64,000 bases of DNA. Origin: Diaphorobacter limosus (GTDB lineage: Bacteria > Pseudomonadota > Gammaproteobacteria > Burkholderiales > Burkholderiaceae_C). Below, in pieces: positions 3,089 through 41,935 of this stretch (position 1 is the stretch's first letter; each line of letters begins with the position of its first letter). The DNA is taken from positions 1,272,501-1,336,500 of the forward strand of contig NZ_CP136921.1 of the NCBI RefSeq assembly GCF_033100095.1, in the 5' to 3' direction. Below the pieces are notes generated by a model. That model made no database searches. It saw only the letters and a program-made list of their open reading frames with translations, and had not been told where the DNA came from. A program made the position numbers and the translations under genes.

Positions 3089-3182
3089 GCGAGAAACGGA
3101 ACCCGGACGGCATGGCGTTGATAATAATGGGCTCCCAGCCGCCACCGCCCCCCGCGGGCGCCCCAGCGCCCAACCGCAGCCC

Positions 3183-5770: not shown

Positions 5771-5825
5771 AAATAATAGCTGCTAGCGCTTGATGGTTAA
5801 GCGCTAGCAGCTATTTTCACCTAAA
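5771..5825. repeat. Palindromic dispersed repeat, perfect 17-bp arms
   Basis: The arms AATAGCTGCTAGCGCTT (5775-5791) and its exact complement (5799-5815) flank a 7-bp loop. This is the cleanest copy of the family seen throughout the window. It fills the gap between lpdA (stop at 5832) and the zapE start, so it could act as a weak terminator or RNA stabiliser. Confidence 0.85.
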
Positions 5826-5831
5826 TTTTAC

Positions 5832-7259
<1,428 letters not shown>

Positions 7260-7335
7260 GGTGTGAATTCTTGAAAAAGAGTTGAAAAAACCCACCGCTG
7301 GGCTGGGCCGAGGGTGGGTTTCAGGAGGCCTTGAA

Positions 7336-8595
<1,260 letters not shown>

Positions 8596-8610
8596 TTTGA
8601 ATTCCGTTAT

Positions 8611-8680
8611 GTGTTGTGCGTTGTACGGTGGATGGGCGTTGTGCCGGCGTTGCGCACAACGCCCATCGCACAACGCTCAA
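8611..8680. repeat. Second-family hairpin repeat in the odhB-sucA gap
   Basis: The perfect 14-bp arms GATGGGCGTTGTGC (8631-8644) and its complement (8654-8667) are flanked by further GTTGTGCG / CGCACAACGCTCAAC sequence. A related element lies at 54451-54498. It fills the space between sucA and odhB and may tune read-through within the operon. Confidence 0.7.
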
Positions 8681-8690
8681 CCTGTGAGCC

Positions 8691-11570: not shown

Positions 11571-11898
11571 GTTGGCGCTGACCTTCGACTCCCTGCAGGA
11601 GGCTTTAGCTGGTTGAGAAACCTTCCGCGTCACGGCTGAACCGGTTGGCGGATGCGACTGTGGCTTGGAAGGGCCTGAATGCGGGCGCTATTGTGCCATT
11701 GAACGCCTTGCAGCTGCCTTGCAATCGCCGGGCCGGCTTGGCTTATTCCATTTCCAAATCATTCGTGTCTGGGCGCGAAGCCGCAGACAGTGCTGCAGCA
11801 CGGCAAGGCGAAGCAACAACGACACGGGTGATTTAGAAATGGAATTACATTGTGAGCCCGCTCACTTTGGAGCGTGTTTGCGACCCCCGCCGCCCCAC
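11571..11898. other. Divergent intergenic region (328 bp)
   Basis: This lies between sucA (leftward) and the AI-2E-family gene (rightward) and must hold both promoters. I see no clear sigma-70 pair. A frame open upstream of the AI-2E gene from 11665 gives Arg/Cys-rich, non-membrane sequence and I treat it as non-coding. No RNA gene or strong hairpin was recognised. Confidence 0.5.
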
Positions 11899-12963
11899 AT
11901 GCACCCGCCATTGCTCCAGAACCGCACCCTGCTGCTGTTGCTCACCATCGTCACGCTGGCCTTTGGCACCATCCTCTGGCCGCTCAATGGCGCCATTTTC
12001 TGGGGAGTGGTGCTGGCCATTCTGTTCAGCCCGTTGCACCGCCGCTTGCAGCGGCGCATGCCACGGCGGCGCAACCTGGCGGCCTTCGTCACGCTGTGCA
12101 TCTGCCTGGTGATCGTCATCCTGCCCATGGCGCTCATAGGACTGTCGCTGGTGCAGGAGGCCAGCGTGGCCTATGAGCGGGTGCGCTCCGGGCAGCTGAA
12201 TTACGGCGCCTACCTGCAGCAGATGCTGGCCGCCCTGCCCGCCTGGGTGCTGGAGCTGCTGGACCGCTTCCACCTCACCTCCATGGCCGAGCTGCAGGCG
12301 CGCCTGACGGCCTTTGGCGCCCAGGCCAGCCAGTTCCTGGCCACCAAGGCGCTGGACCTGGGGCAGAACACGCTGCAGTTCGTCGTCAGCTTTGGCGTCA
12401 TGCTGTACCTGCTGTTCTTCTTGCTGCGCGACGGGCGGGCACTGGCGGCGCGCATCCGCGAGGCGATTCCGCTGGACGCCGAGCACAAGGATCAGCTGGC
12501 GCAGAAGTTCACCACCGTGATCCGCGCCACCGTCAAGGGCAACATCGTCGTCGCCGCGTCGCAGGGCGCGCTGGGCGGACTGATCTTCTGGCTGCTGGAC
12601 ATACAGGGGCCGGTGATGTGGGGCGTGCTGATGGCCTTTCTGTCGCTGCTGCCGGCCGTGGGCGCCAGCCTGATCTGGGGCCCGGTCGCCATCTACTTCC
12701 TGGCCACCGGCGCCACCGGCCAGGCCGCCATCCTCACGGCCTACGGCATCGGCGTCATCGGCCTGGTGGACAACCTGCTGCGCCCGCTGCTGGTGGGCAA
12801 GGACACCAAGATGCCGGACTACGTGGTACTGATCTCCACGCTGGGCGGCATGGCGCTGTTTGGCCTGACCGGCTTCGTCATCGGCCCCGTGATTGCCGCC
12901 CTGTTCATGGCCACCTGGGGCTTGTTTGCCCCCGCCGGGGACTCACATAGCTCCCAAAAGTAG
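11899..12963 (+). CDS. AI-2E family transporter (PerM-like permease)
   Basis: 354 residues from MHPPLLQNRTLLLLL. About seven to eight hydrophobic helices in the AI-2E/PerM pattern: two N-terminal helices (LLLLLTIVTLAFGTILW, GAIFWGVVLAILFSPLHRR), a third helix and a central soluble stretch, then four to five C-terminal helices ending ISTLGGMALFGLTGFVIGPVIAALF (quoted in parts), which carries the family's GPxxxAL signature. The substrate is unknown; the family name is historical. An alternative ATG at 11839 would add 20 polar residues. The last codons and the TAG stop lie inside a dispersed repeat. Confidence 0.85.
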   Translation: MHPPLLQNRTLLLLLTIVTLAFGTILWPLNGAIFWGVVLAILFSPLHRRLQRRMPRRRNLAAFVTLCICLVIVILPMALIGLSLVQEASVAYERVRSGQLNYGAYLQQMLAALPAWVLELLDRFHLTSMAELQARLTAFGAQASQFLATKALDLGQNTLQFVVSFGVMLYLLFFLLRDGRALAARIREAIPLDAEHKDQLAQKFTTVIRATVKGNIVVAASQGALGGLIFWLLDIQGPVMWGVLMAFLSLLPAVGASLIWGPVAIYFLATGATGQAAILTAYGIGVIGLVDNLLRPLLVGKDTKMPDYVVLISTLGGMALFGLTGFVIGPVIAALFMATWGLFAPAGDSHSSQK

Positions 12964-13012
12964 AGCTACTCGCGCTTATCCATAAAGCGCTTGAAGCCAA
13001 AAATATTCAAAA
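12946..13012. repeat. Dispersed palindromic repeat copy overlapping a gene end
   Basis: Carries CATAGCTCCCAAAAGTAGAG, then CGCGCTTATCC and AAAGCGCTTGAAGCC, the shared hairpin core. The TAG stop codon of the AI-2E gene (12961-12963) lies within the repeat, so its last residues (SHSSQK) are repeat-encoded. Confidence 0.7.
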
Positions 13013-13024
13013 TTCATCGCCCAC

Positions 13025-14011
13025 TCATTCGGGCTCTATGCCCGCGGCCTTGATGACCTTGCCCCATTTCTGGGTCTCGGCGGCCTGGAATTTGGCGAGC
13101 TCCTCGGGCGTGGTGGTCCAGGCTTCGGAGCCGGCGTTGGTGAAGAACGACCTAGCGGCCTCGCTTTTCGTGGCGTGGGCCAGCAGCTCGTTCAGGCGCG
13201 CCACCACCGGCGCGGGCGTGCCGGCGGGCACGTAGGCGGCGAACCAGTAGCCCATGTCGTAGCCCTTCACGCCAGCCTCGGCGATGGTGGGTACGTCGGG
13301 CAGCTGGGCGCCGCGCTTTTGCGTGGAGTAGCCCAGGGCGCGCAGCTTGCCGGCCTTGATCTGCGGCACGCCGGTAGAGGTGTCGGTAATCATCATGTCG
13401 ATCTGCCCGCCCAGCAGGTCGGTAATCGCCAGCGGGTTGCTCTTGTAGGGCACATGCAGGATGTCCACATCGGCCAGCTGCTTGAGCATCTCGCCGGCCA
13501 TGCGGCTCGATGAGCTGCCGCTGCCAAAGCTGAGCTTGCCGGGGTTCTTCTTGGCAAAGGCCAGCAGCTCGGCCACGCTTTTGTAGGGCGCGCCAGCATT
13601 CACCACCAGCACCTGCCCACCCTTGCCCAGGCCGGTGACGGGCGCGAAGTCCTTCACCGGGTCGTAGGACAGCTTTTTGTACAGATGCTCGTTGGCGGCG
13701 TGCGTGGTGTTGGTGGTGATGAGCACGGTGTAGCCGTCGGGCGCGGCCTTGGCCGCGGCCTGGGCGGCGATCATGCCGCTGGCGCCGGCCTTGTTGTCCA
13801 CCACCACGGGCTGCTTGGTGTCGGTGGTGACCGACTGGCCCAGGGCGCGCGCCAGCTGGTCGGTGGCACTGCCGGCGGCAAACGGCACGATGAAGGTGAT
13901 GGCCTTGGCCGGATAGGCCGGCGCCTGGGCACTGGCGGTGCCTGCTGCGGCGCATGCCAGCGTGGCGGCAACGATAGCCAGTGCGCGGCGGCGGTGCATG
14001 GATGGGTTCAT
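13025..14011 (-). CDS. Tripartite tricarboxylate transporter substrate-binding protein (Bug family)
   Basis: 328 residues. Signal peptide MNPSMHRRRALAIVAATLACAAAGTASA is followed by the Bug/TctC hallmark YPAKAITFIVPFAAGSATDQLARALG and later DNKAGASGMIAAQAAAKAAPDGYT (quoted in parts), which form the carboxylate-binding cleft. Periplasmic receptors of this type are greatly expanded in Comamonadaceae and often have no TctAB partners; none are present here. It is the last gene of an operon with the two AtuA-type genes, suggesting capture of a carboxylate used by that pathway. M5 is an alternative start. Confidence 0.88.
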   Translation of the reverse strand: MNPSMHRRRALAIVAATLACAAAGTASAQAPAYPAKAITFIVPFAAGSATDQLARALGQSVTTDTKQPVVVDNKAGASGMIAAQAAAKAAPDGYTVLITTNTTHAANEHLYKKLSYDPVKDFAPVTGLGKGGQVLVVNAGAPYKSVAELLAFAKKNPGKLSFGSGSSSSRMAGEMLKQLADVDILHVPYKSNPLAITDLLGGQIDMMITDTSTGVPQIKAGKLRALGYSTQKRGAQLPDVPTIAEAGVKGYDMGYWFAAYVPAGTPAPVVARLNELLAHATKSEAARSFFTNAGSEAWTTTPEELAKFQAAETQKWGKVIKAAGIEPE

Positions 14012-14053
14012 GTTTGTCTCCTGGGTTTGCTGTGTTGAAAATCGAAAAATGGC

Positions 14054-14416
14054 TTACCGGGGGCCAGCCAGGTGCTGCGCCAGCGCCGCTGGCACCTGCA
14101 CCGGCAGATCGAGCAGCAAGAAGGACAGGGCCTTGCCATGGCTGTCGAGGTTCAGCGCGTCGTTGACGCCGCCGTCGAGCACGCCGTCGAGCACGAAGTT
14201 CATGGCCTGCAGCTTGGGCAACACATGGCGCGTGACCTGGCTGGGCCGTCGCTCTGCAAACTGGCGCGCCACGGCCTCTTCGGTGACTAGATCGACCAGC
14301 ACATCCCAGAGCGCGGGGTGCCAGGCGATGACGCTGATGTTGGAGCGATTGCCCTTGTCGCCCGTACGGCCGTGGGCCAGGCGGTGCAGGGGAACGGTGA
14401 GAACGGTATCGGTCAT
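14054..14416 (-). CDS. AtuA C-terminal-like (ferredoxin-fold) protein
   Basis: 120 residues from MTDTVLTVPLHRLAHGRTGDKG. RTGDKGNRSNISVIAW is the conserved patch of the small domain found at the C-terminus of AtuA-type proteins or, as here, as a separate gene next to them. The name comes from the acyclic terpene utilisation cluster of Pseudomonas; the biochemical role is unproven. It starts 14 bp after the AtuA gene ends, so the two are surely co-translated. The upstream frame is only a shadow of the AtuA gene. Confidence 0.8.
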   Translation of the reverse strand: MTDTVLTVPLHRLAHGRTGDKGNRSNISVIAWHPALWDVLVDLVTEEAVARQFAERRPSQVTRHVLPKLQAMNFVLDGVLDGGVNDALNLDSHGKALSFLLLDLPVQVPAALAQHLAGPR

Positions 14417-14430
14417 GGTTATTGCACCTT

Positions 14431-15783
14431 TCAATCCAGCAGCGTGAAACCGGTGGTGACGGCCGCGCGCGGCACCAGGCAGGACACCGTGCCCAGGCGC
14501 GGCCGCATGGCGGTGCGCACGCCGCCGCCGCCGGCCGGACCGCAGCAGTACAGCGCCGTCACCTCGCGCACCAGGCGCTGGGCGCTGGCGTGCTCGGTGT
14601 GTTGCAGCGCCACGCGCAGGCGCACGTCGCGCGCATCGCCGGGCGCCTGGGCAGCCAGCCAGCGCCCGGCGTCGTCGCCGAACACGCTGGCCACGCCTAT
14701 CAGGTCGATGCGCAGCGGCGCTACGCCCGCCAGGCGCTCGCGCAGCACCTCGCCGGCCAGGCGGGCGCGGGCCTCGGCGCGGGCCCCGGCGTAGGAGATT
14801 TCGCCCTCGGCGAACCAGCCGGACTCGAAGCACACGTTGACCTTGAGCGTGGGCGTGCGCGCATGGCCGCGCACGCCGTCCAGGCGCACGCGGTCGGTGC
14901 CGGCCTGCGCCACATGGGCGCCGGTGATGTCGGCCACCACGTCGGGCGTCAGGTAGGCGGCCGGGTCGTGCAGCTCATACAGCAGCTGCTCCTTGACGGT
15001 GCGCTCGTCCACGCGCCCGCCCGTGCCGGCCGGCTTGGTGATGCTGCAGTGGCCGTCGGCGTCGATCTCGGCAATGGGGTAGCCCAGGCGCGCCAGGCCT
15101 GCCACGTCCTTGTAGCCGGGGTCGGCAAAGTAGCCGCCCGTGACCTGGGCGCCGCATTCGAGCAGATGGCCGGCCATGGTGGCGCGCGCCAGGCGGTCCC
15201 AGTCGTCCAGCTGCCAGCCGTAGTGCGCCAGCGCCGGGCCGACCACCAGGGACGGGTCGGCCACGCGGCCGCAGACCACGATGTCGGCGCCCGCGCGCAG
15301 CGCGTCGGCAATGGGCTGCGCGCCTATGTAGGCGTTGGCGCTGACGATGGGCTGGGTGGGCATGTCGGCGCCCAGGGCCTGCGCCAGCAGGGCGCGGTGC
15401 TCGGGGCCGCTCAGCTCGTCGCCATGCACCACGGCCACGCGCGGGCGGCGCGCGCCCAGCTCCCGCGCCAGCTGCTGAATGCGCAGCGCCGCGCCATGCG
15501 GGTTGGCCGCGCCAAAGTTGCTCACGATGCGCACGCCATGGCGCAGACATTGCGCCAGCACGGGGCGCAGCAGGTCGTCCAGCAGCGGTTCGTAGCCGGC
15601 TTCGGGGTTGCCGCGGCGGGCGAGCTGGGCCAGCGCCAGCGTGCGCTCGGCCAGGGTCTCGAAGATCAGCACCGCGGGCCGGCCGCTGTCCACCAGGGCC
15701 TGCACCACGGGCGCGGCGGCGTCGGTGCGGTCGCCGGAAAAACCGGCCGCGCAGCCTACCAGCAGGGGGGAGTGATTCGCCAT
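14431..15783 (-). CDS. AtuA-family protein (DUF1446)
   Basis: 450 residues. Begins MANHSPLLVGCAAGFSGDRTDAA and contains NFGAANPHGAALRI, GADIVVCGRVADPSLVVGPALAHYGW (quoted in parts) and GGYFADPGYKD, all typical of DUF1446/AtuA. These proteins occur in catabolic operons for acyclic terpenes and other branched acyl compounds; the reaction is not established. It is first in the operon AtuA - AtuA C-terminal partner - Bug receptor, divergent from a LysR regulator 93 bp away, which probably controls it. Confidence 0.85.
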   Translation of the reverse strand: MANHSPLLVGCAAGFSGDRTDAAAPVVQALVDSGRPAVLIFETLAERTLALAQLARRGNPEAGYEPLLDDLLRPVLAQCLRHGVRIVSNFGAANPHGAALRIQQLARELGARRPRVAVVHGDELSGPEHRALLAQALGADMPTQPIVSANAYIGAQPIADALRAGADIVVCGRVADPSLVVGPALAHYGWQLDDWDRLARATMAGHLLECGAQVTGGYFADPGYKDVAGLARLGYPIAEIDADGHCSITKPAGTGGRVDERTVKEQLLYELHDPAAYLTPDVVADITGAHVAQAGTDRVRLDGVRGHARTPTLKVNVCFESGWFAEGEISYAGARAEARARLAGEVLRERLAGVAPLRIDLIGVASVFGDDAGRWLAAQAPGDARDVRLRVALQHTEHASAQRLVREVTALYCCGPAGGGGVRTAMRPRLGTVSCLVPRAAVTTGFTLLD

Positions 15784-29316: not shown

Positions 29317-30156
29317 TTATTGCCCAGTGCCTGCGGCATCCAGCGGCCACTCGCCCAGCACCTCATAGGGGCCGCTTGAGCCGCGCAGGTTGTGCAGCAA
29401 CGCAAAGCTGCGCACCGTCCATTCCAGTGGCGCCACGGCTTGCGCGGGTACGGCCTGGTGGCTGTAGCACAACGTCATGTGCGGCATGACGGCTGGTACC
29501 GGCCTGGCGGGCCACAGCGCCGCGTGCAAGGCTACATGCAGCGCATGAAACCCGGCATGCGCGTCACCCGGCCCGCACAGCACGCAGGGGCGCTTGGCGC
29601 GCGCCGGACGGTCAAAGCTCAAGGCGCGATCCAGGCGCAACGTGAACGGCGCCACCGAGACACGCGCCGCCGTGCCGCGCGCCCATGCCAGTTGCTCGGC
29701 TGACAGCGCATGCGCCCAGCCCAGCGACATCAGCGTTACATGCAAACGCTCGGCGCGCACCTGGGCCTGGAGGCCGTGGCGCGCAATCAGCGACTGGCCC
29801 AGGGCGTTGGCCGCCTGCACCACCGCGGCATCGGGCAGCACGGCGAAAAACAAATGGTGCCGGGGCTGCGGTCCGGCCTTGAATTGTGTTGAGTCACCCA
29901 GCAATGCACTCAGCGCCTGGTTGTGCGTGGACGCCGCCACCCGCCGCTCATTGGCCAGCATGGCCAGAAAACCCTCGACATCCTCCCACCCCATGTCACG
30001 CGGATGCCGCAAACCATGCCACTTCACAACCTTGCGCACCCATTGCACATAGGCTTCCTCGGTACCCAGGCTATCGTGTTTGTAACGAATTCGCTCACGG
30101 ACTTGATCCAGCAACCGTGTAGTGCGTAACACCGGGGAAGGAGTAGCGGGTTTCAT
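29317..30156 (-). CDS. Fusion: integron-integrase N-terminal domain + LigT/ThpR RNA 2',3'-cyclic phosphodiesterase
   Basis: 279 residues. Residues 1-86 are the SAM-like DNA-binding domain of an integron integrase ([56 protein letters not shown]), which closely parallels IntI1. The sequence then switches at [11 protein letters not shown] to a full LigT/ThpR domain with both HxTx catalytic motifs, LHVTLMSLG and PHMTLCYSH. The tyrosine-recombinase catalytic domain is absent, so no integrase activity is expected, while the LigT part looks intact. A TTG at 29904 (codon 85) could still initiate a native-size LigT. The fusion most likely arose by deletion between intI and ligT. Confidence 0.85.
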
Positions 30157-30205
30157 GGCTGAATTGAGTGCTGTATTTTTGTGCAGTATTCCGACTGCCA
30201 AGTCA

Positions 30206-30232
30206 GGCTGCAAGCCCCTTGCAGCCTTTTTT
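30206..30232 (+). terminator. Terminator-like hairpin between intI remnant and attI-like site
   Basis: GGCTGCAAG (30206-30214), loop CCC, CTTGCAGCC (30218-30226), then six T. As read on the plus strand this is a complete intrinsic terminator, although no plus-strand gene lies upstream; it may be a relic. Confidence 0.55.
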
Positions 30233-30259
30233 GCGCGGCAATTTAGACCGCAGATGCAA

Positions 30260-30266
30260 GTTAGAT
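30260..30266 (+). other. Candidate attI core (GTTAGAT)
   Basis: GTTAGAT fits the integron simple-site consensus GTTRRRY, is preceded by ATGCAA as in other attI cores, and sits about 105 bp from the integrase start codon on the side where cassettes are inserted. The inference depends on the adjacent intI fragment. Confidence 0.45.
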
Positions 30267-30282
30267 CTCTCAAGCTAATGAC

Positions 30283-30378
30283 ATGGTTCACACCGTCATA
30301 AAACCCATTTCGGAGTTCGCAGCTGCACTAGCAGAAATTCCGCTTAGCCCTGGAAAGCACGTTTTACAAGGTGGCTAG
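30283..30378 (+). CDS. Tiny ORF in the first cassette position
   Basis: 31 codons ([20 protein letters not shown] ...), ending 2 bp before the next small ORF. No family recognised and no clear ribosome-binding site. Its position between the attI-like core and a half-attC suggests it is cassette cargo, possibly a truncated toxin or antitoxin. Confidence 0.3.
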
Positions 30379-31511: not shown

Positions 31512-32120
31512 ATGCACATCCTGATCGTCGAAGACAACACCCTGGTGGCCAGCGGTATCCGGGCCGGGCTGGAGCTGCATGGTTTTGCCAGCGACACGGC
31601 GGCCAGCGTGGCCCAGGCCGAGGCCCATCTGGCGGCGCGCAGCTACGACGCCTGCGTGCTTGACCTGGGCCTGCCGGACGGCGACGGCATGCAGCTGCTG
31701 CAGTTGGCGCGCGTGGAGAGCGCCAGCAGCGCCGAGACGCCGGAGACCCAGGGCGCGGCCATCGCCCTGCCCCCGGCGCTGCTGACCTGCGCCGTCACCA
31801 ACCTGCTGGACAACGCCCTGCGCCACCACCGGGGCAGCACGGCGATAACCATCGCGCTGCGGCTGTGCGAGGGCGCCAGTGTGGACATCAGCGTACGCGA
31901 CCATGGCCCGGGCCTGACCGAGCAGGAATGCACGCAGGCGCTGCAACGCTTTTGGCGCAAGGGCGGCAGCGGCCCGGGCAGCGGCCTGGGCCTGACCATT
32001 GCACGCCGCATTGCCGAAAGCGCCGGCGGCAGCCTGCACCTGGCGCCGGCCCAGCCCGGCCTGCTGGCCCGGCTGCAGCTGCCCACGCTGGCGCCCGCCA
32101 CCGAGGTGGGCCATGGATAG
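31512..32120 (+). CDS. Chimeric two-component protein: truncated receiver fused to histidine-kinase ATPase domain
   Basis: 202 residues. Residues 1-68 are the first half of an OmpR-type receiver (HILIVEDNTLVASGIRAGLE, acidic pair E7-D8, phospho-acceptor D51 in VLDLGLPDGDGMQL). It then jumps to the C-terminal HATPase of a QseC-like kinase: N-box TNLLDNALRHH, G1 DHGPGLT, RFWRKG, and G2 GSGLGLTIARRIAE. The receiver lacks its switch Thr and Lys, the regulator lacks its DNA-binding domain, and the kinase lacks sensor, HAMP and H-box. An in-frame deletion across a regulator-kinase operon explains this. Signalling function is doubtful. Confidence 0.85.
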   Translation: MHILIVEDNTLVASGIRAGLELHGFASDTAASVAQAEAHLAARSYDACVLDLGLPDGDGMQLLQLARVESASSAETPETQGAAIALPPALLTCAVTNLLDNALRHHRGSTAITIALRLCEGASVDISVRDHGPGLTEQECTQALQRFWRKGGSGPGSGLGLTIARRIAESAGGSLHLAPAQPGLLARLQLPTLAPATEVGHG

Positions 32121-32952
32121 CGTGTTGCAGCTCGGCCCCCTGGTGCTGCCCTGGGCGCTGATCATCCTGCTGGTTGGCTGGCAGTTGGGCCACTGGGTAC
32201 ACGAACGGTTGGCCAGGCGCAGCGGTCTGACGCCCGGCCCGCATGCCTGGCGCCTGACGCTGGCAGCCCTGCTGGCCGCGCGCCTGGGCTTTGTGCTGCA
32301 GTACCGGGCTGAATATGGCGCCGCGCCCTGGTCGGTGCTGGACATACGCGACGGCGGCTGGCAGCCCTGGGCCGGCCTGGCGGCCGCCCTGCTCTACGTG
32401 GGCCTGCTGTGGCTGCGGCGCAGCCCCTGGCGCCAGCCGGCACTGGCCGGCGTGGCGGTGTTTGCCACCATCTGGCTGGCGGGCCTGGCCCTGCTGCAGG
32501 CCATGGCACCCCAGCGCCCGACCGAGCTGCCCGACTGGCGCGGCGTGGCGCTGGACGCACGCAGCGTGGCCCTGCCCGAGCTGCGCGGCCAGAGCGTGGT
32601 GATCAACCTGTGGGCCAGCTGGTGCCCACCCTGCCGGCGCGAGATGCCGGTGCTGCTGCAGGCCAGCCGTGCGCACCCCGAGGTGCGCTTTCTCTGGATC
32701 AACCAGGGCGAGCCGCCCGAGACGGCGCTGCGCTACGCCAGCCAGCAGGGCCTGCCCGCGGCCGATGTGCTGCTGGACACGGCATCGCAGCTGGGCCGCG
32801 ATCTGGACAGCAAGGCCCTGCCGACCACGCTGTTCTACGACGCCCAGGGCCGGCTGCAGGCCGTGCGCGCGGGCGAGCTGTCGGCCGCCACGCTGGCGCA
32901 GCATCTGGGGCGCATCACCGCCTCTGGGACGGCGCGGCAGGCCAGCAAATAA
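32113..32952 (+). CDS. Membrane-anchored TlpA-like thioredoxin with Lgt-like N-terminal membrane domain
   Basis: 279 residues; overlaps the preceding gene by 8 bp. Residues 1-135 have four hydrophobic helices and a stretch (LLAARLGFVLQYRAEYG, DIRDGGWQPW) that resembles part of prolipoprotein diacylglyceryl transferase (Lgt) but lacks its full motif. Residues about 140-275 are a TlpA/ResA-type thioredoxin with WASWCPPCRREMP and the cis-Pro segment KALPTTLFYDAQG. It likely reduces disulfides on the periplasmic side, for example in cytochrome c maturation. Confidence 0.85.
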   Translation: MDSVLQLGPLVLPWALIILLVGWQLGHWVHERLARRSGLTPGPHAWRLTLAALLAARLGFVLQYRAEYGAAPWSVLDIRDGGWQPWAGLAAALLYVGLLWLRRSPWRQPALAGVAVFATIWLAGLALLQAMAPQRPTELPDWRGVALDARSVALPELRGQSVVINLWASWCPPCRREMPVLLQASRAHPEVRFLWINQGEPPETALRYASQQGLPAADVLLDTASQLGRDLDSKALPTTLFYDAQGRLQAVRAGELSAATLAQHLGRITASGTARQASK

Positions 32953-33005: not shown

Positions 33006-33580
33006 TTCTCAAACCCAAGTCGATCAAACAACCCGCCCCGGTTGGCCGGCTCCGTGCCCGTGTTGCCGCCGGCGGCCTCGATGGTGGTGAAGAAATGGTG
33101 CATGGCGTCCACCACGCGGCTGCGCTGCTCGCCGCTGTTGATGGTCTCGTCCACGCTGCGGCCATCGGCCGTGTACACCCGCATCCAGCTGCGTGGCGCG
33201 TAGGCGATCTGGCCCACCAGGGTCATGGGCACGTCAAAAGCCGTGGCCGGAAAGCCCTGCGTCGGCGCTGGCGCCTGCGAGCGCGAACGCACGCGCACCA
33301 CCTGGCTGCTGCCAAAGTGGAAGTCCGCCCCCGTGACCTCGGCCGACTGGTGCGGCAGGCCGATCGTGAGCACCGCCAGGCCAGTCTTGGCACTGCTCCA
33401 GGCGCCGGCCAGCACCGGGCATTGCGTGCGTGTGCAAGCCAGGGGTTCGGGCGCCACGGTCACGGTCTTGGCGCCGCCATCGGCCACGGCTTGCCGTACC
33501 TGGGGCACCAGGGTTTGCTGGCCGGCACAACCGGCCAGGAGAACCACGCAAACCACCCCTGTAGGCCAGAAAAATTTCAT
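32999..33580 (-). CDS. Putative lipoprotein of unknown function
   Basis: 193 residues. Lipoprotein signal MKFFWPTGVVCVVLLAGC (lipobox LAGC). The mature protein starts AGQQTLVPQVRQAVADGGAK and contains VAPEPLACTRTQCPVLAGAW, with two cysteines that could pair, and RSWMRVYTADGRSVDETINS. No domain recognised; the all-beta-looking middle part suggests an envelope structural or binding role. Divergent from the patatin operon with 163 bp between starts. Confidence 0.7.
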   Translation of the reverse strand: MKFFWPTGVVCVVLLAGCAGQQTLVPQVRQAVADGGAKTVTVAPEPLACTRTQCPVLAGAWSSAKTGLAVLTIGLPHQSAEVTGADFHFGSSQVVRVRSRSQAPAPTQGFPATAFDVPMTLVGQIAYAPRSWMRVYTADGRSVDETINSGEQRSRVVDAMHHFFTTIEAAGGNTGTEPANRGGLFDRLGFEKK

Positions 33581-33743: not shown

Positions 33744-34757
33744 ATGGCTTTGACGATTGGCGGTACCGCCAGGCGCATTGGCCTGGCATTGTCGGGCGGC
33801 GGTTTTCGCGCCGCGGCGTTTCACTTGGGGGTCATGCGCAGGCTGGCGGCGCTGGGCATTCTGGAGCATGTCGACCTGTTCACCTGCGTCTCCGGCGGCA
33901 GCATTGCCGGCGCCACCGTGGTCAAGCACTGGGCCGACCCGGCCCGGCTGGACATCCTCGATCGCTACCTGCGCACCCGATCTATCGCCGTGTCGTCGGT
34001 GATCGGCGGCGTGCTCGACCCATTCGAGGATCGCCTGGACAAGCTGGCCGCAAGCTACGACCGCGACCTCTTTGACGGCGCAACCCTGGATGGACTGGGC
34101 GGCGGGCCGCGCCTGTACGTCAACGCCACCAACCTGGCCACCGGCAACCTGTTCTTCTTTGTCACCGGCGGCGGCAAACCGGCCGAGATGGGCGAGCATG
34201 AACTGGGCGTGGTGGCCGCGCCCGGCTTTCCGGTGTGCCGGGCGGTGGCGGCGTCGTCGGCGTTTCCGCCGGTGTTTCCGCCGCTGCGCCTGGATGCCAG
34301 CAGCTATGCGCACGCCAGCAGCGTGGAGTACGTCACGCTCACCGACGGCGGCGTGTACGACAACATGGGCATCAACCCCCTGGTGCGCGCACGCAATGCG
34401 CTCGACTACGTCATCGTCAGCGACGGCGGCAAGCCCTTTGCCCTGGACGAGCGCCCCACCGAGTCCGGCGCCATCGTCTTGAAGGCGGCGCTGGACATCA
34501 TGATGGAGCAGATCCGTGGCCTGGAGTTTGACCGGCTGCAACACCGGCACGCGGCGCTGAAAGGCCCGCAGCCGCTATGGTTTTCGATAGACAGCCGCGA
34601 GGGCGAGGCGCAGGCCGGCGATGCGGCATTCGCCTCCTCCATCAAGACCAACCTGACGCGGCTGGGCCGCGAGGAGATGGACGTACTGACGCGCCATGGC
34701 GGCGCGCTGGTGGAGGCACGCATCCGCCGCTACGCGCCCGAGCTGATAGGCGCATGA
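33744..34757 (+). CDS. Patatin-like phospholipase (first gene of CHAT operon)
   Basis: 337 residues with SD AAGGAGG 7 bp before the ATG. Oxyanion loop LALSGGGFRAAAFHLG (G18-R22), nucleophile Ser50 in TCVSGGSIAGA, and the catalytic Asp201 in LTDGGVYDNMGINPLV, so the Ser-Asp dyad is complete. Also NATNLATGNLFFF and AVAASSAFPPVFPP, typical of the family. No signal peptide or transmembrane helix; a cytoplasmic enzyme expected to attack membrane phospholipids when activated. It leads the patatin-CHAT-MBL-CHAT operon, 45 bp before the next gene. Confidence 0.9.
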   Translation: MALTIGGTARRIGLALSGGGFRAAAFHLGVMRRLAALGILEHVDLFTCVSGGSIAGATVVKHWADPARLDILDRYLRTRSIAVSSVIGGVLDPFEDRLDKLAASYDRDLFDGATLDGLGGGPRLYVNATNLATGNLFFFVTGGGKPAEMGEHELGVVAAPGFPVCRAVAASSAFPPVFPPLRLDASSYAHASSVEYVTLTDGGVYDNMGINPLVRARNALDYVIVSDGGKPFALDERPTESGAIVLKAALDIMMEQIRGLEFDRLQHRHAALKGPQPLWFSIDSREGEAQAGDAAFASSIKTNLTRLGREEMDVLTRHGGALVEARIRRYAPELIGA

Positions 34758-34802
34758 CTCCCCCGGCACGCGGGGCACCCGATCCACCACTGGAGACCGA
34801 CC

Positions 34803-37718
34803 ATGAAGTTCGATTTCTGGATCCGCTGGGGCATGAACCTGTCCGACGCCGACTTTGCCGCGGCCTGGCTGGCACTGGGCATTGCCGCTGGCGCCGCCCG
34901 CAAACCGCCTGCCGCCAAGGGTGACTTGGCGCGGGCGCGGGCCGCCGCCGCCACGCCGGACGATGGGCTGGCGATTGCGCGCGACGCGCTGACCGGTGCG
35001 CTATCGGTTGCCGCCGAACAGGACCAAGGTGTGAACTGGCGCTTCCCTGATCCTGACGACTGCGTGGATGCCGATGGCCGCCTGCCCCTGAGCCGCATCG
35101 CCCCGGCGGCCTGGGCCCAGGCCTGGGGTGCAGCAGCAGGCCAGGCGCCAGCACCCCGCCTGCGCGTGACCAACGCGCCGGAAGACGAGCCATACCTGCC
35201 CTGGCTGCGCCTGCTGTCCGAGGCCCGCCCCAAGGTTGCCGCCGTCTCCATGGCCTGGCAGGCACCCAACCCCCAGCTGGTGCTGGCCTGGCCGCTGCGC
35301 CTGGGCGCCGTGTCTGCCGAGGGCGAGGCCGTAATCGCCGCCGCGCGGGAGCAATGGCCCAGCGATCGACTGACCCAGCGCGTCGGCATAGACCGCGACA
35401 ACGCCAACTGCGATGTGCTGGTACACAGCGGCACCTTGGCTACGCTGCTCTCCGCCCTTGCGGCGCAGCCGTTTCATTGCAAGGCCAACCTGGTACTGGT
35501 CGCCTCCGCCAGCGACGCGGGTGGCGCAGCAGTGCTAAAACAAATCCGCGCCATTGCGCAGAAGACCAATGCCAGCGGCGTCCTGCTGTGGACGCAGCCC
35601 GCCGATGCCCGCGCCAGCGGGTTGGCGCTGAATGCCTTCATCAATGAGTTCTCGCACGACCTGCCGCTGGATCAGGCTCTGCATGCCGCCGCCCAGCGCG
35701 AACCCGTAGGCGAGGCGAGCGGCTGGCTCACCGATGCTGTTGCCGGCCTGCATCTGCATGCGCTGGCCGACACGCTGGTGGCGCGTGCGCAGGCGCTGCC
35801 CGCCGGCACCGCCATCAAGGTTAAGGATTTGAGCGCGCATTGGGTAAAACGCATTGCGCCTGTCACAACGCGCGCGGGCGGTTTTGCCGGTGCCTCCAAG
35901 GCCATGCCGGAGGGCTATGAGGACGTGGACACGGTGCAACTAGACACCAGTCAGCTGGACTACCTTGGCGAATCCCATGGCGCCTCCGAGCTTGCGACCC
36001 TGGGCGACGCGCTGGCGAATGCACGCACCACGACCAAGGCCGAGACGCACCGCGCCGCGCGCTACCTGCAGCAGCAGTCCTTTGTGCGCCGGCGCGGCCG
36101 ATATGCCGCGGCGGCCGGCGGCTTTGTCGCCGGCGCACCCGCGCTGGTGCGCGTGCGCATAGGCCCGCCCCAGGGCAAATGGCAGTCCACCCCGGCGGAG
36201 TTTCCGGCAGAGGCGCTGCCGCCGGGCTACCAGCAATGGCGGCTCACCGTCTGGCTGACCGAAGCCAGGCAACTGGATGAACCCTTGCGCAAGACCATCA
36301 CCCTGCCAATCGATGGTGCCAGCACCGAATGTGAATTTCGCTTCACACCCCGCAGCGCCGGCCCCTTCGACGGCCGGATCAGCGTGCTGCACCGCGGGCG
36401 CGTGCTGCAGACCGCCGCGCTGCGTGGCGGCGTCATCGCCGACGGCGCACCCGCGGATGCCAAGGCCATGCCGGTGCTCGCTGACATCGTGCCGGTGCGC
36501 CATCGCCTGGGCGACCTGGAGGGCCGGCGCCAGTTCGACCTGGCGTTTGTCACCAACCACACGAGTGCGGGCGAGCCGCGTGCGGTCGCCCTTTCGGCCA
36601 ATCACGCGTGGATTTCCGATGTCACCAAGAGCCTGGCGGTCACGCAGGACATCAACACCGCGCTCTCCAAGGTGGCCAAGTCGGTGGCCGACTACACCGA
36701 CGGGCTCTCTGGCGAGAAGGGGCGCGCACTGTTCGTGGATCTGGCCAAGAAAGGCGCCTGGCTGCAGCTGTACCTGGTAAGCAACCAGATTCAGCGCCCC
36801 GGCAACCGGCCCGATGTGGCCGAGCAGGAATATATCCAGATCGTCAGCACGCGCAGCGATGCCATCGTGCCCTTCGAGTTCATCTACGACCATGAGGTGC
36901 CGGACGACGATGCAGCCATCTGCCCGCAGTGGCGCGATGCGCTGGAGCACGGCAACTGTGCGCAAGGATGCAATGGTGGCGACCCCAGGCGGGTCTGCCC
37001 CCTGGGGTTCTGGGGCCTGCGCAAGGTCATAGAACGCCACCAGGTCAGCCCCGAACTCGCGGCCCCGGGACGGGAGCTTTTCCTGCAGTCGGAGCCGGGG
37101 CGGGATACGACGGACCTACCCCTGGGCGGCACGGCCTTGTTTGCCAGCAGCCAGAAGGTACCCAATGCGGCGCAGAACACCGTGACGGCGGCACTCACAC
37201 AAAAGCTGGGCCTGGCGCCCATGCAGGCAACCAACTGGTCCGACTGGGCCACCATGGTCGGCCAGGCCAGGCCGCATTTCCTGCTGGCACTGCCGCACAC
37301 CGACGGCACCGGCGCCAACGTCACGCTGGAGATAGGCGGCACCACCATAGGCACCATCCAGGTCAAGCCGGCGCATGTGCACCCGGCCAAGGACGACGCA
37401 CGCCCGCTGGTCGCCCTGCTAGGCTGCGACACCGCCGGCACCGCCAACGAATACGCCGAGCATGTGGCGGTGTTCCGCGATCGCGGCGCCGCCGTAGTGA
37501 TAGGCACCATCGCCACCGTGTTTGGCGAGCATGCGGCCCGCGTGGGAGTGCTGTTGGCGCAGGAGCTGCTGCCCGACGGCGCGCCGCCGCAACGCCTGGG
37601 CGAGGCCATGCGCACGCTCAAGCGCCGGGCACTGCTTGAAGACCTGCTCATGCCGCTGTGCGTGGTCGCCTATGGCGATGCTGACTGGCGGCTGGTGCGT
37701 GAAGTTGCAGGAGGATGA
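34803..37718 (+). CDS. Large CHAT (caspase-like) domain protein
   Basis: 971 residues. Residues 1-600 match nothing I recognise; they include a helical first part and a beta-rich segment (about 450-560: RVRIGPPQGKWQSTPAEFPA). Residues about 640-960 form a CHAT protease: FVDLAKKGAWLQLYLV, IVPFEFIYDHEVP (the usual 'P.E.lyD' near 690), a four-Cys stretch CPQWRDALEHGNC... CNGG...VCPLGFWG that may bind zinc, catalytic His832 in LALPHTDG and Cys875 in LVALLGCDTAG. No ATPase domain. Coupled by a 4-base ATGA overlap to the MBL gene. Confidence 0.82.
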   Translation: MKFDFWIRWGMNLSDADFAAAWLALGIAAGAARKPPAAKGDLARARAAAATPDDGLAIARDALTGALSVAAEQDQGVNWRFPDPDDCVDADGRLPLSRIAPAAWAQAWGAAAGQAPAPRLRVTNAPEDEPYLPWLRLLSEARPKVAAVSMAWQAPNPQLVLAWPLRLGAVSAEGEAVIAAAREQWPSDRLTQRVGIDRDNANCDVLVHSGTLATLLSALAAQPFHCKANLVLVASASDAGGAAVLKQIRAIAQKTNASGVLLWTQPADARASGLALNAFINEFSHDLPLDQALHAAAQREPVGEASGWLTDAVAGLHLHALADTLVARAQALPAGTAIKVKDLSAHWVKRIAPVTTRAGGFAGASKAMPEGYEDVDTVQLDTSQLDYLGESHGASELATLGDALANARTTTKAETHRAARYLQQQSFVRRRGRYAAAAGGFVAGAPALVRVRIGPPQGKWQSTPAEFPAEALPPGYQQWRLTVWLTEARQLDEPLRKTITLPIDGASTECEFRFTPRSAGPFDGRISVLHRGRVLQTAALRGGVIADGAPADAKAMPVLADIVPVRHRLGDLEGRRQFDLAFVTNHTSAGEPRAVALSANHAWISDVTKSLAVTQDINTALSKVAKSVADYTDGLSGEKGRALFVDLAKKGAWLQLYLVSNQIQRPGNRPDVAEQEYIQIVSTRSDAIVPFEFIYDHEVPDDDAAICPQWRDALEHGNCAQGCNGGDPRRVCPLGFWGLRKVIERHQVSPELAAPGRELFLQSEPGRDTTDLPLGGTALFASSQKVPNAAQNTVTAALTQKLGLAPMQATNWSDWATMVGQARPHFLLALPHTDGTGANVTLEIGGTTIGTIQVKPAHVHPAKDDARPLVALLGCDTAGTANEYAEHVAVFRDRGAAVVIGTIATVFGEHAARVGVLLAQELLPDGAPPQRLGEAMRTLKRRALLEDLLMPLCVVAYGDADWRLVREVAGG

Positions 37719-38839
37719 CCATGACCCAGCCATTCTTCACGGTAGAGATGCTGCCAGCCAGGCACGGCGACGCGCTGTGGATCGAGTACGGCGACGAGCG
37801 CCGCACGCGCCGCATCCTGATCGACGGCGGCCCGCTGCACGCCTGGCCGGACTTTGCGGCGCGCATCGGCAAGCTCCCCGCGGGTGACCAGCGTATCGAG
37901 CTGCTGGTGATCACGCATGTGGACACTGACCATATCGAGGGCATCATCCGCCTGCTGGCACTGCCGCGTGCCAAGTGGCCGCTGGAGCCCATGGACATCT
38001 GGTTCAACGGCTACCGGCAGATCGAGGCGCAAAAGGATTTGGGCGGGCGCGAGGGTGAGTTCCTCAGCGCCCTCATCCACCGGCGTGCCTTTGACGAGTG
38101 GAACCGGGCCTTTGGTCGCAATGCCGTGGTCGTGCCGGGCAAGGGGCCACTGCCACGCATTGCCCTGCCGGACAAGGACGGCATGGTGCTCACGCTGCTG
38201 TCGCCCGACAAGGCCAAGCTGACCGCCATGGGAAAGCGCTGGCGCAAGGATGTGGCGCAGTGGGAGCTGGACCCGGGGGATCTGGACGCCGCCTGGGCGC
38301 AATTGGTCGATGAAGCCAAATTTCACCCCGGCGCCGAGCTGACCCTGGGGCCTGAGGATTTGACGGCCCAGTTGCGCGCCCAGCTCAAGGGTGCGGACGC
38401 ATCAGCAGCCAACGGCAGCAGCATTGCCTTCCTGGCCGAATACGCGGGCAAGTCCTGCCTGTTCCTGGCCGACGCGCACATGAAGACCGTGTGCGCCTCC
38501 ATCCGCCGTCTGCTTGCGCCGGGCCAGGATGCGCTGCGCGTGGACGCCGTGAAGCTGGCCCACCACGGCAGCCGCAACAACCTGACGCCGGAATTCATGC
38601 AGCTGGTGGACGCCGAGCATTTCCTGTTCAGCAGCAACGGCGACAAGTTCAAGCACCCGGACGCGCAGGCGGTCCAGGCCGTGATCCACGGCGCGCGCCG
38701 CAAGCCCACGCTGTGGTTCAACTACCGCAGCGCCTTCAACGAGCGCTGGGAAGCCGGCTCGCAAGCTGCCAACGCGGCCTACGCCACGCGCTATCCCGCG
38801 CCGGGCGCGGCCGGCATCACCGTGCCACTGCTGGCCTGA
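37715..38839 (+). CDS. ComEC-like metallo-beta-lactamase-fold hydrolase
   Basis: 374 residues from the overlapping ATG at 37715 (ATG 37721 is equally possible). MBL fold: FTVEMLPARHGDALWIEYGD, ILIDGG, metal motif LLVITHVDTDHIEG (HxDxDH, first His at residue 68), NGSSIAFLAEYAGKSCLFLADA (quoted in parts) and the late motif VDAVKLAHHGSRNN, which is the ComEC/Rec2 signature HHGS. Such enzymes hydrolyse nucleic-acid phosphodiesters. No membrane helices, so it is a soluble enzyme. Third gene of the operon, most likely an effector nuclease. Confidence 0.85.
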   Translation: MTMTQPFFTVEMLPARHGDALWIEYGDERRTRRILIDGGPLHAWPDFAARIGKLPAGDQRIELLVITHVDTDHIEGIIRLLALPRAKWPLEPMDIWFNGYRQIEAQKDLGGREGEFLSALIHRRAFDEWNRAFGRNAVVVPGKGPLPRIALPDKDGMVLTLLSPDKAKLTAMGKRWRKDVAQWELDPGDLDAAWAQLVDEAKFHPGAELTLGPEDLTAQLRAQLKGADASAANGSSIAFLAEYAGKSCLFLADAHMKTVCASIRRLLAPGQDALRVDAVKLAHHGSRNNLTPEFMQLVDAEHFLFSSNGDKFKHPDAQAVQAVIHGARRKPTLWFNYRSAFNERWEAGSQAANAAYATRYPAPGAAGITVPLLA

Positions 38840-38866
38840 AGCTGCCCTCCACCAAACGAGATACGC

Positions 38867-41800
38867 ATGACAGACCAGCAAGCAACGGCGCCGGACTGGA
38901 GCCGATTTCACGGAGCCATGGTCTCGGGCACGATGCAGGGCGAGATCCTCTCGGCCTGTGAACGCGCGTGGGCCTGGCTGGAGCTGCCTGCAGAAGACTG
39001 CGCGCGCCGGATCGAAGACACCATCCACAGCGATGTTGCCGCCCGCTGGCAGCTGCAGGCCCTGCCCTTCGTGCGGCACCGGCTGATGCATGAGGCAGGT
39101 ATTCACCCCAACGACAACGCGCCGCGTGCCGCCCTGTCCGACTCCGTGGCAACGGGGCAGGCCAGCGCTGCCGAGCTTGAACTGTCGCGCCACCTGAATG
39201 CCACGCTGGCCATCGACCGGCTGGTGACCGAGCGCTTTCCTGATGCGGTACTGCCGCCCGCGTCGTCGGACGGGCAGCGCGAGGCGCTGCTCGGCCGCAC
39301 ACCCGCCTTGACCGAGGCCATGCACGCCTGTGACGTCGCCCGCGCCACGCCGCAAGGGCTGGCGCGGCTGCAGGCAGCCATTGCCGTCCTTGACGCCGCA
39401 GGCTCCCAGGCGCAGGGCGACATCGCGCGCGAACAGGCCTGGTGGCTGGGCCTCGCCTGGTGGGCCGCCGGGCGCGCGGCGCTGGAGCTTGGCCAGCAGG
39501 GCGCAGGCCGTCAGGCCTACGAGCACGCCGTGGCGCATTACACCCAGGCCGCCGACACACAGGCGGCCGAAGACTGCCGAGAACGCCTGCGCGACCTGGC
39601 CGCGCGGCGCACGGGCGACTTCGACACGGCGGCCGGGCGCGAGCTGTCCGCCCTGCTCCTGCGCCGCGACCCACTTGGGCGCGCCCGGGCGCTGTGCCGG
39701 CTGGTACGCGAGACGCTTGCCACGGGCGACCGCTTCGAGGCCGCTCGCCTGGCCGAGCAGGCCGCGCTGGTGCTGGCCGAGGCGGGTTACCCGGATCCGG
39801 AAAGCGATTTCGACAAGGCTGCGCAGCAATGGGTGGACAGCGCTTGCCCCACCTGCACCGGCAGCGCTCTCATCGCCCAGCTGTGCGAGATCGCCCAGCA
39901 CTGGGCCGCCATCCTCGGGGCCCGGGCCAGCCAGCGCATGCAGGACGACCCCGCCGCCAGCGAACATGCCGAACTCGTGCTGCGCCGCATATCCCCCTGG
40001 GCGGGCGAACTGCTCAACCAGGCCGACGCGGCCGAACAAGCCACCGCGCAGCGCTTTGCCCTGTGGTGCCCACCACAAACCCAGCCTTTGCCCGAACGGC
40101 ACCCGGCCGCCCCATTGCCGCAGGGCATGGTCACGCTGGACATGCTCGATGATTCCTTGGCCGAGCTGCGCAGCGCCTGCAACGAACGTGCCGACCCGGC
40201 GCAGGTCGACGAGGCGCGCGCGCTGCGCGCCAGTGCCCAGCAGGCCGGGGCGCGCATCCATGTGGTGCGGGCCTGGCTGGAAGAAGCCTATGTGCTGCTT
40301 GCGCTGCAACGCCCGGCCGAGGCGGCAGAAGCGTCGCAGCAGGCGCTGGACTGCCTGCTGGCTGGCGCAAAGCCCGCACTTTCGGCATTTGCCACGGGCT
40401 TCGAGCGCGAGCTCTACCTCACCGCCATCAGCTACCAGGCACGCGCATTCATGGCCACGCAGGACAGCGCGGCCATCATCGCGCTGTGCGAGCCGGTGAT
40501 CCGCGATCTGGAGGGCGAACGCCTGCGGGTCAGCAGCCCCTACCAGCAAAGCGCCTTCCTCGCCACGCGCACCGAGCTGTATGAGGCCGTCGCCGCCGCC
40601 GCATACCGCACGCAGCGGCTGGATTTGCTGCTGGAGATCAGCGAGCTATTGAAGGCGCGCGCGGCACTGCGCAGCCGCCTTGCGCCGAGCACCCCCAGCG
40701 AAAACGGCGACCTGGATGCCGAGCTGCGCGCCTGCAATGCCGGACTGCTGGCCGCCACGCCCGAATCGGATCAGGAACGCAGCCTGCGCGAGCGGCGGCG
40801 CTGGCTGTTCAGCGCACGCGCCATCAGGCGCGCGGGTGATGGCCAGGTCATGCCGCCAATCAGCGTTGCAGCTCTGCAAGCGGTGTTGACGCCGCAAGAG
40901 GCAGCCATCACCTGGTTCTGGCTGGGAACGGCGACGCTCATCGTGCTTGCGCTCACAGCCGATCGCACGCGCCACATGGTCGTCAAGCTCGATGCCAACC
41001 AGCAGGCCCGCCTGGCGGACTATCTGGCCTGCATCCACGCACTGGCCGAGGCGCAGCCACGCTACGGCACGCTGATACCAGCCATGGACGCGCTGATCGC
41101 CGAGATCGGCCCGGTACTGCTGCCGCAGGCGGCGCGCGACCTCCTCGATGGCAAGACCCGGTTGATCCTGTGCCCGCATCGCCAGTTGCACCTGTTTGCC
41201 TTCCACGCGGTGTTGCACGACGGCAGCCCCCTTGGCGCCACATACGCCATTCGCTACACGCCCAGTCTTTCAAGCCTCTTCGTGCCCTGGCGCGGCGACG
41301 GCCAAGAGGCGGTGCTGTTGGTCGGCGTAAGACAGTTCGACGATCCGGCCCTGCCGGAACTGCCCGAGGCCGAGCAAGAGGCACTGACGGTGGCCGCGCT
41401 GCACGGGCCCAATGGCCGTGCGCTGACAGGCGCCACCAAGGCGCAGTTCCTGGCACAGGCACTGCCATCGCTGCGCTGCCTGCACCTGGCGACGCACGGC
41501 AGCAGCGTGCTGACTGGCGCTGCGGCCGACGACCCGCTCGATTGCGCGCTGCATCTGCGCGATGCTGCGGTGAGCGGCTGGGAGCTGACGGGCCTGCACC
41601 TGCCCGCCGAGCTCGTGGTGCTGGCGACCTGCCATTCCGCACAGCGCGCCATCGCTGGCCGTGGCCTGGACAGTCTGCCGGGTGATGATCTGTTTGGTCT
41701 GCCGGCCACCCTCTGCGAAGCAGGTGTGCATCAGCTGCTCGGGGCGCTTTGGAGTGCGCAGGACAACGCGGCACGCACCATCGTCAGTGAGTTTCACCGC

Positions 41801-41935
41801 GCATACGCACGCGGCGCCGAAGCCGATGTCGCGCTGCGCGACGCCCTGCACGCCTACCTTGCCAACGCCTCGCACCCGCGAGAGGCCTTCTTCTGGGCGC
41901 CCTTCACGCTGACCGCATTCAGCCGACGCGTGTGA
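38867..41935 (+). CDS. Helical-repeat CHAT domain protein (TPR-CHAT type)
   Basis: 1022 residues. Residues 1-620 are almost all alpha-helical and Ala/Leu/Glu-rich (for example RAALELGQQGAGRQAYEHAV and YVLLALQRPAEAAEASQQAL), TPR-like in character and probably a sensor/scaffold. Residues about 690-1018 are a canonical CHAT protease: AITWFWLGTATLIVLALTAD, ILCPHRQLHLFAFHAVL, catalytic His877 in LRCLHLATHGSS and Cys922 in LVVLATCHSAQRAI, then GVHQLLGALWSAQDNAA. 27 bp after the MBL gene and last in the operon; convergent with ridA. Confidence 0.87.
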   Translation: MTDQQATAPDWSRFHGAMVSGTMQGEILSACERAWAWLELPAEDCARRIEDTIHSDVAARWQLQALPFVRHRLMHEAGIHPNDNAPRAALSDSVATGQASAAELELSRHLNATLAIDRLVTERFPDAVLPPASSDGQREALLGRTPALTEAMHACDVARATPQGLARLQAAIAVLDAAGSQAQGDIAREQAWWLGLAWWAAGRAALELGQQGAGRQAYEHAVAHYTQAADTQAAEDCRERLRDLAARRTGDFDTAAGRELSALLLRRDPLGRARALCRLVRETLATGDRFEAARLAEQAALVLAEAGYPDPESDFDKAAQQWVDSACPTCTGSALIAQLCEIAQHWAAILGARASQRMQDDPAASEHAELVLRRISPWAGELLNQADAAEQATAQRFALWCPPQTQPLPERHPAAPLPQGMVTLDMLDDSLAELRSACNERADPAQVDEARALRASAQQAGARIHVVRAWLEEAYVLLALQRPAEAAEASQQALDCLLAGAKPALSAFATGFERELYLTAISYQARAFMATQDSAAIIALCEPVIRDLEGERLRVSSPYQQSAFLATRTELYEAVAAAAYRTQRLDLLLEISELLKARAALRSRLAPSTPSENGDLDAELRACNAGLLAATPESDQERSLRERRRWLFSARAIRRAGDGQVMPPISVAALQAVLTPQEAAITWFWLGTATLIVLALTADRTRHMVVKLDANQQARLADYLACIHALAEAQPRYGTLIPAMDALIAEIGPVLLPQAARDLLDGKTRLILCPHRQLHLFAFHAVLHDGSPLGATYAIRYTPSLSSLFVPWRGDGQEAVLLVGVRQFDDPALPELPEAEQEALTVAALHGPNGRALTGATKAQFLAQALPSLRCLHLATHGSSVLTGAAADDPLDCALHLRDAAVSGWELTGLHLPAELVVLATCHSAQRAIAGRGLDSLPGDDLFGLPATLCEAGVHQLLGALWSAQDNAARTIVSEFHRAYARGAEADVALRDALHAYLANASHPREAFFWAPFTLTAFSRRV

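Follow-up and report, generated by a model that had tools for sequence, protein, structure and literature searches.

The closest described relatives of the locus analysed here are bacterial defence systems in which a protease acts on a metallo-beta-lactamase (MBL) nuclease. According to the main text of PMC12799240, the MBLs HamM and Avs1a are proenzymes whose insertions are cut by a partner protease. In Canu (KaeCanABC, Tuck et al. 2025) the same text describes an MBL that carries two disordered insertions with conserved glycines and is encoded downstream of a protease gene, and mutating either predicted cut site ablated defence. The characterised MBL-protease members Hachiman, AVAST (antiviral ATPases/NTPases of the STAND superfamily) and Canu are described there as acting against phages. 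We analysed a stretch of 64,000 nucleotides from Diaphorobacter limosus (NCBI RefSeq assembly GCF_033100095.1, contig NZ_CP136921.1; hereafter the window), in which four intact plus-strand open reading frames (ORFs) encode a patatin, a putative caspase-clan protease (CHAT1), an MBL and a CHAT protease (CHAT2), spaced by 45 bp, a 4-bp overlap and 27 bp. ORF calls and alignments confirmed the coordinates, strand, gaps and catalytic residues that a preliminary description of this DNA had given for the four genes.

From sequence and by analogy with Canu we read the locus, with a probability of about 0.7, as a defence locus of the Canu (caspase-nuclease) type that uses a CHAT protease and is equipped with a phospholipase. 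Its role is probably abortive-infection defence. A defence or cell-death role with a nuclease as killer and proteolysis as switch had been proposed in the preliminary description, and the scores against Avs1a, LmuA and DRT-MBL models, together with the layout shared with Canu as given in the main text of PMC12799240, argue indirectly for it. At rest the MBL nuclease would be a proenzyme with its active site covered by two flexible loops. Upon infection CHAT1 would be switched on and would cut both loops at matching hydrophobic-Gly sites, and the freed DNase would destroy the DNA of both phage and host. A second killer, directed at the membrane, would be the patatin, with CHAT2 as an optional extra protease, most likely a trigger sensor or an activator of CHAT1.

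Relation to described systems

In comparison to Canu as presented in the main text of PMC12799240, the window locus likewise has a protease gene, putatively of the caspase clan, followed by an MBL that appears to be of the Avs1a/CanC type (genes 2 and 3, with a 4-bp overlap, in the same order in 14/14 genomes), two low-confidence (disordered) insertions holding conserved glycines in the MBL, and variable extra genes. It differs in that its protease is CHAT/C25-like and not a Pfam C14 caspase, and in having a patatin and a second CHAT protease but no recognisable CanB. The likeness of the MBL to that of Canu was drawn from family models and layout. The preliminary description knew of no system with this gene set; its nearest described counterpart is Canu. 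The words 'lipase' and 'CHAT' are absent from the main text of PMC12799240, and among the matches listed in open-licence PubMed Central no title or abstract start described CHAT-MBL-patatin sets. Beyond that main text, the locus would add a CHAT-type protease family, a matched two-site signature with a shift in trypsin-partnered MBLs, a phospholipase neighbour and an exchangeable second protease.

AVAST type 1, Lamassu, Hachiman and defence-associated reverse transcriptase (DRT) systems also pair a protease with a gated MBL that is homologous to the one described here. In the window locus, in contrast, the protease is encoded upstream, appears to belong to the caspase clan and is paired with a hydrophobic-Gly motif, whereas Ser replaces the first glycine (G110) in 3/3 trypsin-partnered MBLs examined. 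AVAST type 1 was rejected on the NCBIfam Avs1a score (212.9 bits, cutoff 420) and because none of the four genes matched trypsin or STAND. Lamassu was rejected since neither the four genes nor the 10 scanned flanking ORFs include LmuB (an SMC-like ATPase) or LmuC to accompany the LmuA-like match. Csx29 (TPR-CHAT) of type III-E CRISPR shares the CHAT protease domain with CHAT2; this assignment was rejected at 21.5 bits against a cutoff of 300, with no Cas gene in the 10 flanking ORFs, although an array was not searched for. CapV of the cyclic-oligonucleotide-based anti-phage signalling system (CBASS) is a patatin phospholipase, as gene 1 appears to be, and CBASS was rejected as neither the four genes nor the scan of 10 flanking ORFs showed a cyclase.

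The putative gated MBL and its predicted protease partner

Gene 3 (37715–38839, +) encodes a putative gated pro-nuclease of 374 residues that is Avs1a-, LmuA- and CanC-like. PADLOC models matched it as LmuA (5.2e-65), Avs1a (2e-47) and RTasMBL, the DRT or reverse transcriptase-associated MBL (1.5e-36), and both Pfam matches, Lactamase_B_2 and Lactamase_B, were sub-threshold. The residues H68, D70, D72, H73, D253, H283, H284 and S286 are invariant in the 39 rows of alignment A3, for which 23 of the 120 listed homologues, among 2265 found, were used. The closest solved relatives by sequence are the MBL domains of ComEC. From the HxDxDH region to that of the third metal motif, the window MBL has about 80 residues more than the ComEC domain (PDB 9ic4), a span of 142 profile positions in the MBL family as compared to 62 residues in 9ic4. 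ComEC-like DNA uptake was rejected on these extra residues and on the lack of a hydrophobic segment in the MBL; strongly hydrophobic segments were absent from all four proteins (top 19-residue average 1.76).

Related layouts were examined on plasmids, where 68 records had an MBL match and 12 loci were fetched by that match. A caspase was present in 7/12, six arranged as caspase-hypothetical-MBL (Sinorhizobium americanum, Bradyrhizobium, Agrobacterium CG920, Streptomyces, Rhizobium leguminosarum and Caballeronia) and one, from Bosea (L090), as caspase-MBL-caspase with TIR proteins annotated nearby. The S. americanum locus (L088) has a divergent patatin beside the three genes, the Bradyrhizobium locus (L089) begins with a Tle1-like phospholipase and has IetS/IetA next door, and in the Agrobacterium locus (L091) the MBL is followed by a CHAT protein and then by IetS/IetA-like genes. 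IetS/IetA pairs thus adjoin two of the seven caspase-MBL loci (L089, 8087–11779, −; L091, 10182–13762, −). Three other loci had a trypsin-like partner with Trypsin_2 at or above cutoff (L093, annotated Avs1a; L098, Lamassu-like; L099), and two had no identified protease (L096, L097).

In the MBL tree, which was midpoint-rooted and had flagged long branches (L098 and L099 among them), and for which partners were checked by Pfam Trypsin_2 or C14, the window MBL groups with caspase-partnered relatives. A branch with 95/91 support has on one side 13 CHAT1-partnered and seven caspase-partnered MBLs, four unplaced homologues and L097, and on the other the three trypsin-partnered MBLs and L096. CHAT1 partnership requires five changes on this tree, so that a single clade is unsupported.

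AlphaFold2, run on an MBL alignment made without six plasmid rows, modelled the window protein with a mean predicted local distance difference test (pLDDT) score of 83.8. The only listed segments below 50 are residues 104–111 (loop 1; 38024–38047, +) and 204–230 (loop 2; 38324–38404, +), and both carry a Leu-Gly motif (L109-G110 and L211-G212) that we predict to be the cut motif. Gly is found in 39/39 rows of A3 at column 110 and in 34/39 at column 212. 

The tetrapeptides ending at G110 match the loop-2 tetrapeptides better within than between proteins. The match score was 288 as compared to 209.9 ± 15.1 after permutation, and was reached in 0 of 20,000 permutations, in which related proteins are counted as independent; these 23 rows remained of 29 after rows of at least 70% identity were removed, the three trypsin-partnered rows being left out. 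Exact repeats occurred in 6/23 comparisons within a protein and in 3/506 between proteins, for example GLLG/GLLG, DILG/DILG, DRLG/DRLG and ESLG/ESLG. The position scan and the identity cut-off runs were made also without the two rows lacking an identified partner. At a 50% identity cut-off (14 rows) the score was reached in 0 and 1 of 20,000 permutations, and among 90 scanned positions the match excess was highest at residue 110. Three further loci outside the permutation tests read GLLG/GLLG, LTLG/TLLG and DSLG/GLLG. The paired motif points to one protease cutting both MBL loops, as in Canu, and two matched motifs in two disordered loops would give the cut sites ahead of experiment.

Gene 2 (34803–37718, +) encodes CHAT1, a putative caspase-clan protease of 971 residues that we predict to activate the MBL. 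His832 and Cys875 do not vary across the 30 rows of alignment A5; in an earlier 22-row alignment Cys875 was absent from one row, P0018, whose C-terminus reads frame-shifted and which was excluded from A5. No Pfam CHAT match was found (E up to 0.1), and a sub-threshold Peptidase_C25 match (residues 868–944, E = 0.01, 15.5 bits against 23) spans the Cys region. The label CHAT, which the preliminary description had used, was therefore kept on account of the conserved His and Cys and lacks the backing of a Pfam match. If so, protease-activated nucleases would extend to a CHAT-type family that Pfam misses. C707, C723 and C732 are invariant and C719 nearly so in the 30 rows, possibly forming a zinc site ahead of the catalytic domain. 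With regard to the Ig-like domain of Canu, residues 430–545 or so look beta-rich by reading only, and hhalign gave a non-significant result for the C-terminal part of CanA-like proteins. A search of solved structures with the CHAT1 alignment gave no matches. The N-terminal half showed a hint of resemblance to the CHAT domain by hhalign (E = 0.0093, probability 4.4%), and two contigs of an Alicycliphilus metagenome-assembled genome (MAG) matched gene 2 at 99–100%.

Conservation of the locus and alternative explanations

The gene-2 family was found in 6/99 relatives, 11/398 family genomes, 5/399 order genomes and 1/398 phylum genomes (the window's own), samples that overlap and jointly hold 15 genomes with the family. 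This patchy presence does not fit a fixed housekeeping locus. An MBL of the gene-3 family follows gene 2 in 14/14 genomes in which the contig continues (in G031 it ends), and an MBL is also next in 4/4 plasmid CHAT1 loci examined, a fifth plasmid match being equal in score to one of these. A patatin relative lies directly upstream in 10/15 genomes. In G225 it is found two genes upstream, in the one-strand order patatin-AAA ATPase-trypsin/STAND-CHAT1-MBL (trypsin match above cutoff, STAND below), and a phmmer search (E up to 1e-3) of the fetched stretches of G004, G163, G387 and G1030 gave no patatin. In G817, a further genome of this species, a contig end carries the patatin together with the beginning of gene 2. 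CHAT2 adjoins the CHAT1-MBL pair in 1/14 assessable genomes, the window's own, and the idea that all four genes make up a single conserved unit was rejected on this count. What is conserved is the protease-MBL pair, frequently accompanied by a patatin, and the exact four-gene set is rare. The co-occurrence that the preliminary description had suggested as a check was seen for genes 1 to 3, in other families of the order and in a Myxococcota MAG, and rarely for gene 4.

A chance neighbourhood of unrelated genes would agree with the rare adjacency of CHAT2 and with flank homology to congeners that stops on both sides of the block. It is very improbable for the locus as a whole, and for genes 1 to 3 it is already contradicted by the constant CHAT1-MBL order, the recurring patatin and frames that mostly overlap or lie close, a pattern that extends to further families within the order and to the Myxococcota MAG. 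In that MAG (L003) patatin, CHAT1 and MBL are consecutive and CHAT2 is not next to them; in the region 1304–14669 the CHAT1-MBL pair is surrounded by genes for a Zn-dependent phospholipase C, a patatin, a CHAT-Sel1 protein and a PAP2 phosphatase. In two congeners (L012, 1–6843; L013, 50–7492) a homologous large protein and a metallophosphoesterase are encoded directly upstream of patatin/CHAT1, and the large protein has alpha-2-macroglobulin-like bMG domains as scanned in L012 only.

Gene 1 (33744–34757, +; 337 residues) is a patatin-like phospholipase (Pfam Patatin 6.9e-19) and a predicted membrane-lipid effector. It carries GGGFR at residue 18 and DGG at 201. A strict GxSxG was not found; the nucleophile motif is CVSGG, with Ser50 assigned by reading. 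The best match to PADLOC effector models was just E = 0.02. The recurring phospholipase neighbour would tie an attack on the membrane to the destruction of DNA within a single bacterial death programme.

Gene 4 (38867–41935, +) encodes CHAT2, a CHAT protease of 1022 residues with a long N-terminal region (Pfam CHAT 1.1e-35; His877 and Cys922 invariant in 21 rows) and an optional candidate sensor or initiator. The preliminary description was right on the CHAT domain; its TPR-like repeats correspond to a weak Pfam TPR_8 match (E = 0.047), next to a weak NCBIfam Csx29 match and a weak match to TPR-CHAT PDB 7zoq (E = 0.0041). CHAT2 proper (>500 bits) was found in 2/398 family genomes (G000, G183), plus a contig-end fragment in G012, and some match in 77/398, the weaker ones chiefly over the CHAT region. 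BLASTP comparison of the Agrobacterium CHAT protein with CHAT1 and CHAT2 was uninformative. Contigs of equal size (10221 for P0007/P0029, 6600 for P0031/P0054) are an indirect hint that some metagenome relatives carry CHAT2 together with CHAT1 or the MBL. A contig-end CHAT2 fragment lies near an Eco57I-type restriction-modification protein (L080, 3756–9059).

The second protease points to an exchangeable part, whose role may be filled by the trypsin-STAND protein in the G225 operon. In a two-tier cascade CHAT2 would sense infection and cleave CHAT1 or the patatin, and CHAT1 would cleave the MBL, which would bring DNA and membrane under attack at once. Such a cascade finds parallels in the second caspase-clan protease directly after the MBL in 2/7 caspase-MBL loci (C14 in Bosea, CHAT in Agrobacterium), the trypsin-STAND protein within the G225 operon, and the patatin or Tle1-like phospholipase adjoining 2/7 of these loci (L088, L089). 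However, CHAT2 is non-adjacent in 13/14 assessable genome loci, where the core must therefore manage on its own, and G183 has a full-length CHAT2 with neither CHAT1 nor MBL within the fetched 20 kb. We consider this cascade rather unlikely. A broader proposal, which we hold to be unlikely and put forward tentatively, is a two-arm death programme: an initiator CHAT would activate an executioner CHAT, which would release the gated DNase through cuts in its two matching hydrophobic-Gly loops and also license the phospholipase, with joint destruction of DNA and membrane. The initiator (TPR-CHAT-like, trypsin-STAND or caspase) would be exchangeable, and the executioner-nuclease core, often with a lipase, fixed.

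Several observations weigh against the Canu-type reading. Gene 2 has no Pfam Peptidase_C14 match, whereas 7/7 plasmid caspase-MBL loci have one, and hhalign of the CHAT1 family against six CanA-like caspases and against CHAT2 was non-significant; with Pfam CHAT and C14 matches both lacking, common descent with CanA is unsupported. The gene-2 family was also non-significant against six CanB-like proteins, and no separate CanB gene is present. The first Gly is replaced in the two MBLs with no identified partner (Asn in L096, Ser in L097), of which L097 sits within the caspase-partnered clade, and L095 and two other MBLs deviate at the second site. The permutation counts relatives as independent, and with the identity cut-off lowered to 40% (7 or 8 rows) the paired signal weakens to 174 and 889 of 20,000 permutations. 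The window sites are KDLG and LTLG, with only Leu-Gly in common, and as the second Gly is followed by Pro, which is poor for cutting after Gly, the cut bond may be Leu-Gly or lie elsewhere. CHAT1 had no match in phage records or IMG/VR and CHAT2 none in IMG/VR. PADLOC gave few matches on selected neighbours of other CHAT1 loci, and Pfam found no defence gene in the 10 flanking window ORFs, on which PADLOC was not run.

A non-antiviral use of the gated nuclease, in a regulated cell-death or stress pathway or in competition with mobile elements such as plasmids, would be in line with relatives on plasmids and on chromosomes without consistent defence neighbours. The relatives Hachiman, AVAST and Canu act against phages according to the main text of PMC12799240, and we regard this use as quite unlikely in comparison to the Canu-type defence locus.

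Surroundings of the locus

Congener homology to the window flanks ends at 33538–33559 (three congeners examined) and restarts at about 42315 (four examined). In the fetched congeners these flanks lie well separated or on different contigs, never adjacent, and no clean empty site emerged. The preliminary description had placed the locus beside an integron scar. This agrees in part with the ORF at 29317–30291 (−), which matches Phage_int_SAM_4 (3.7e-19) and LigT phosphoesterase (3.3e-7) and is possibly a truncated tyrosine recombinase or integron integrase fused to an unrelated frame; attC sites were not looked for. The ORF at 31999–32952 (+) has an LGT-like part followed by a C-terminal thioredoxin/AhpC-TSA domain.

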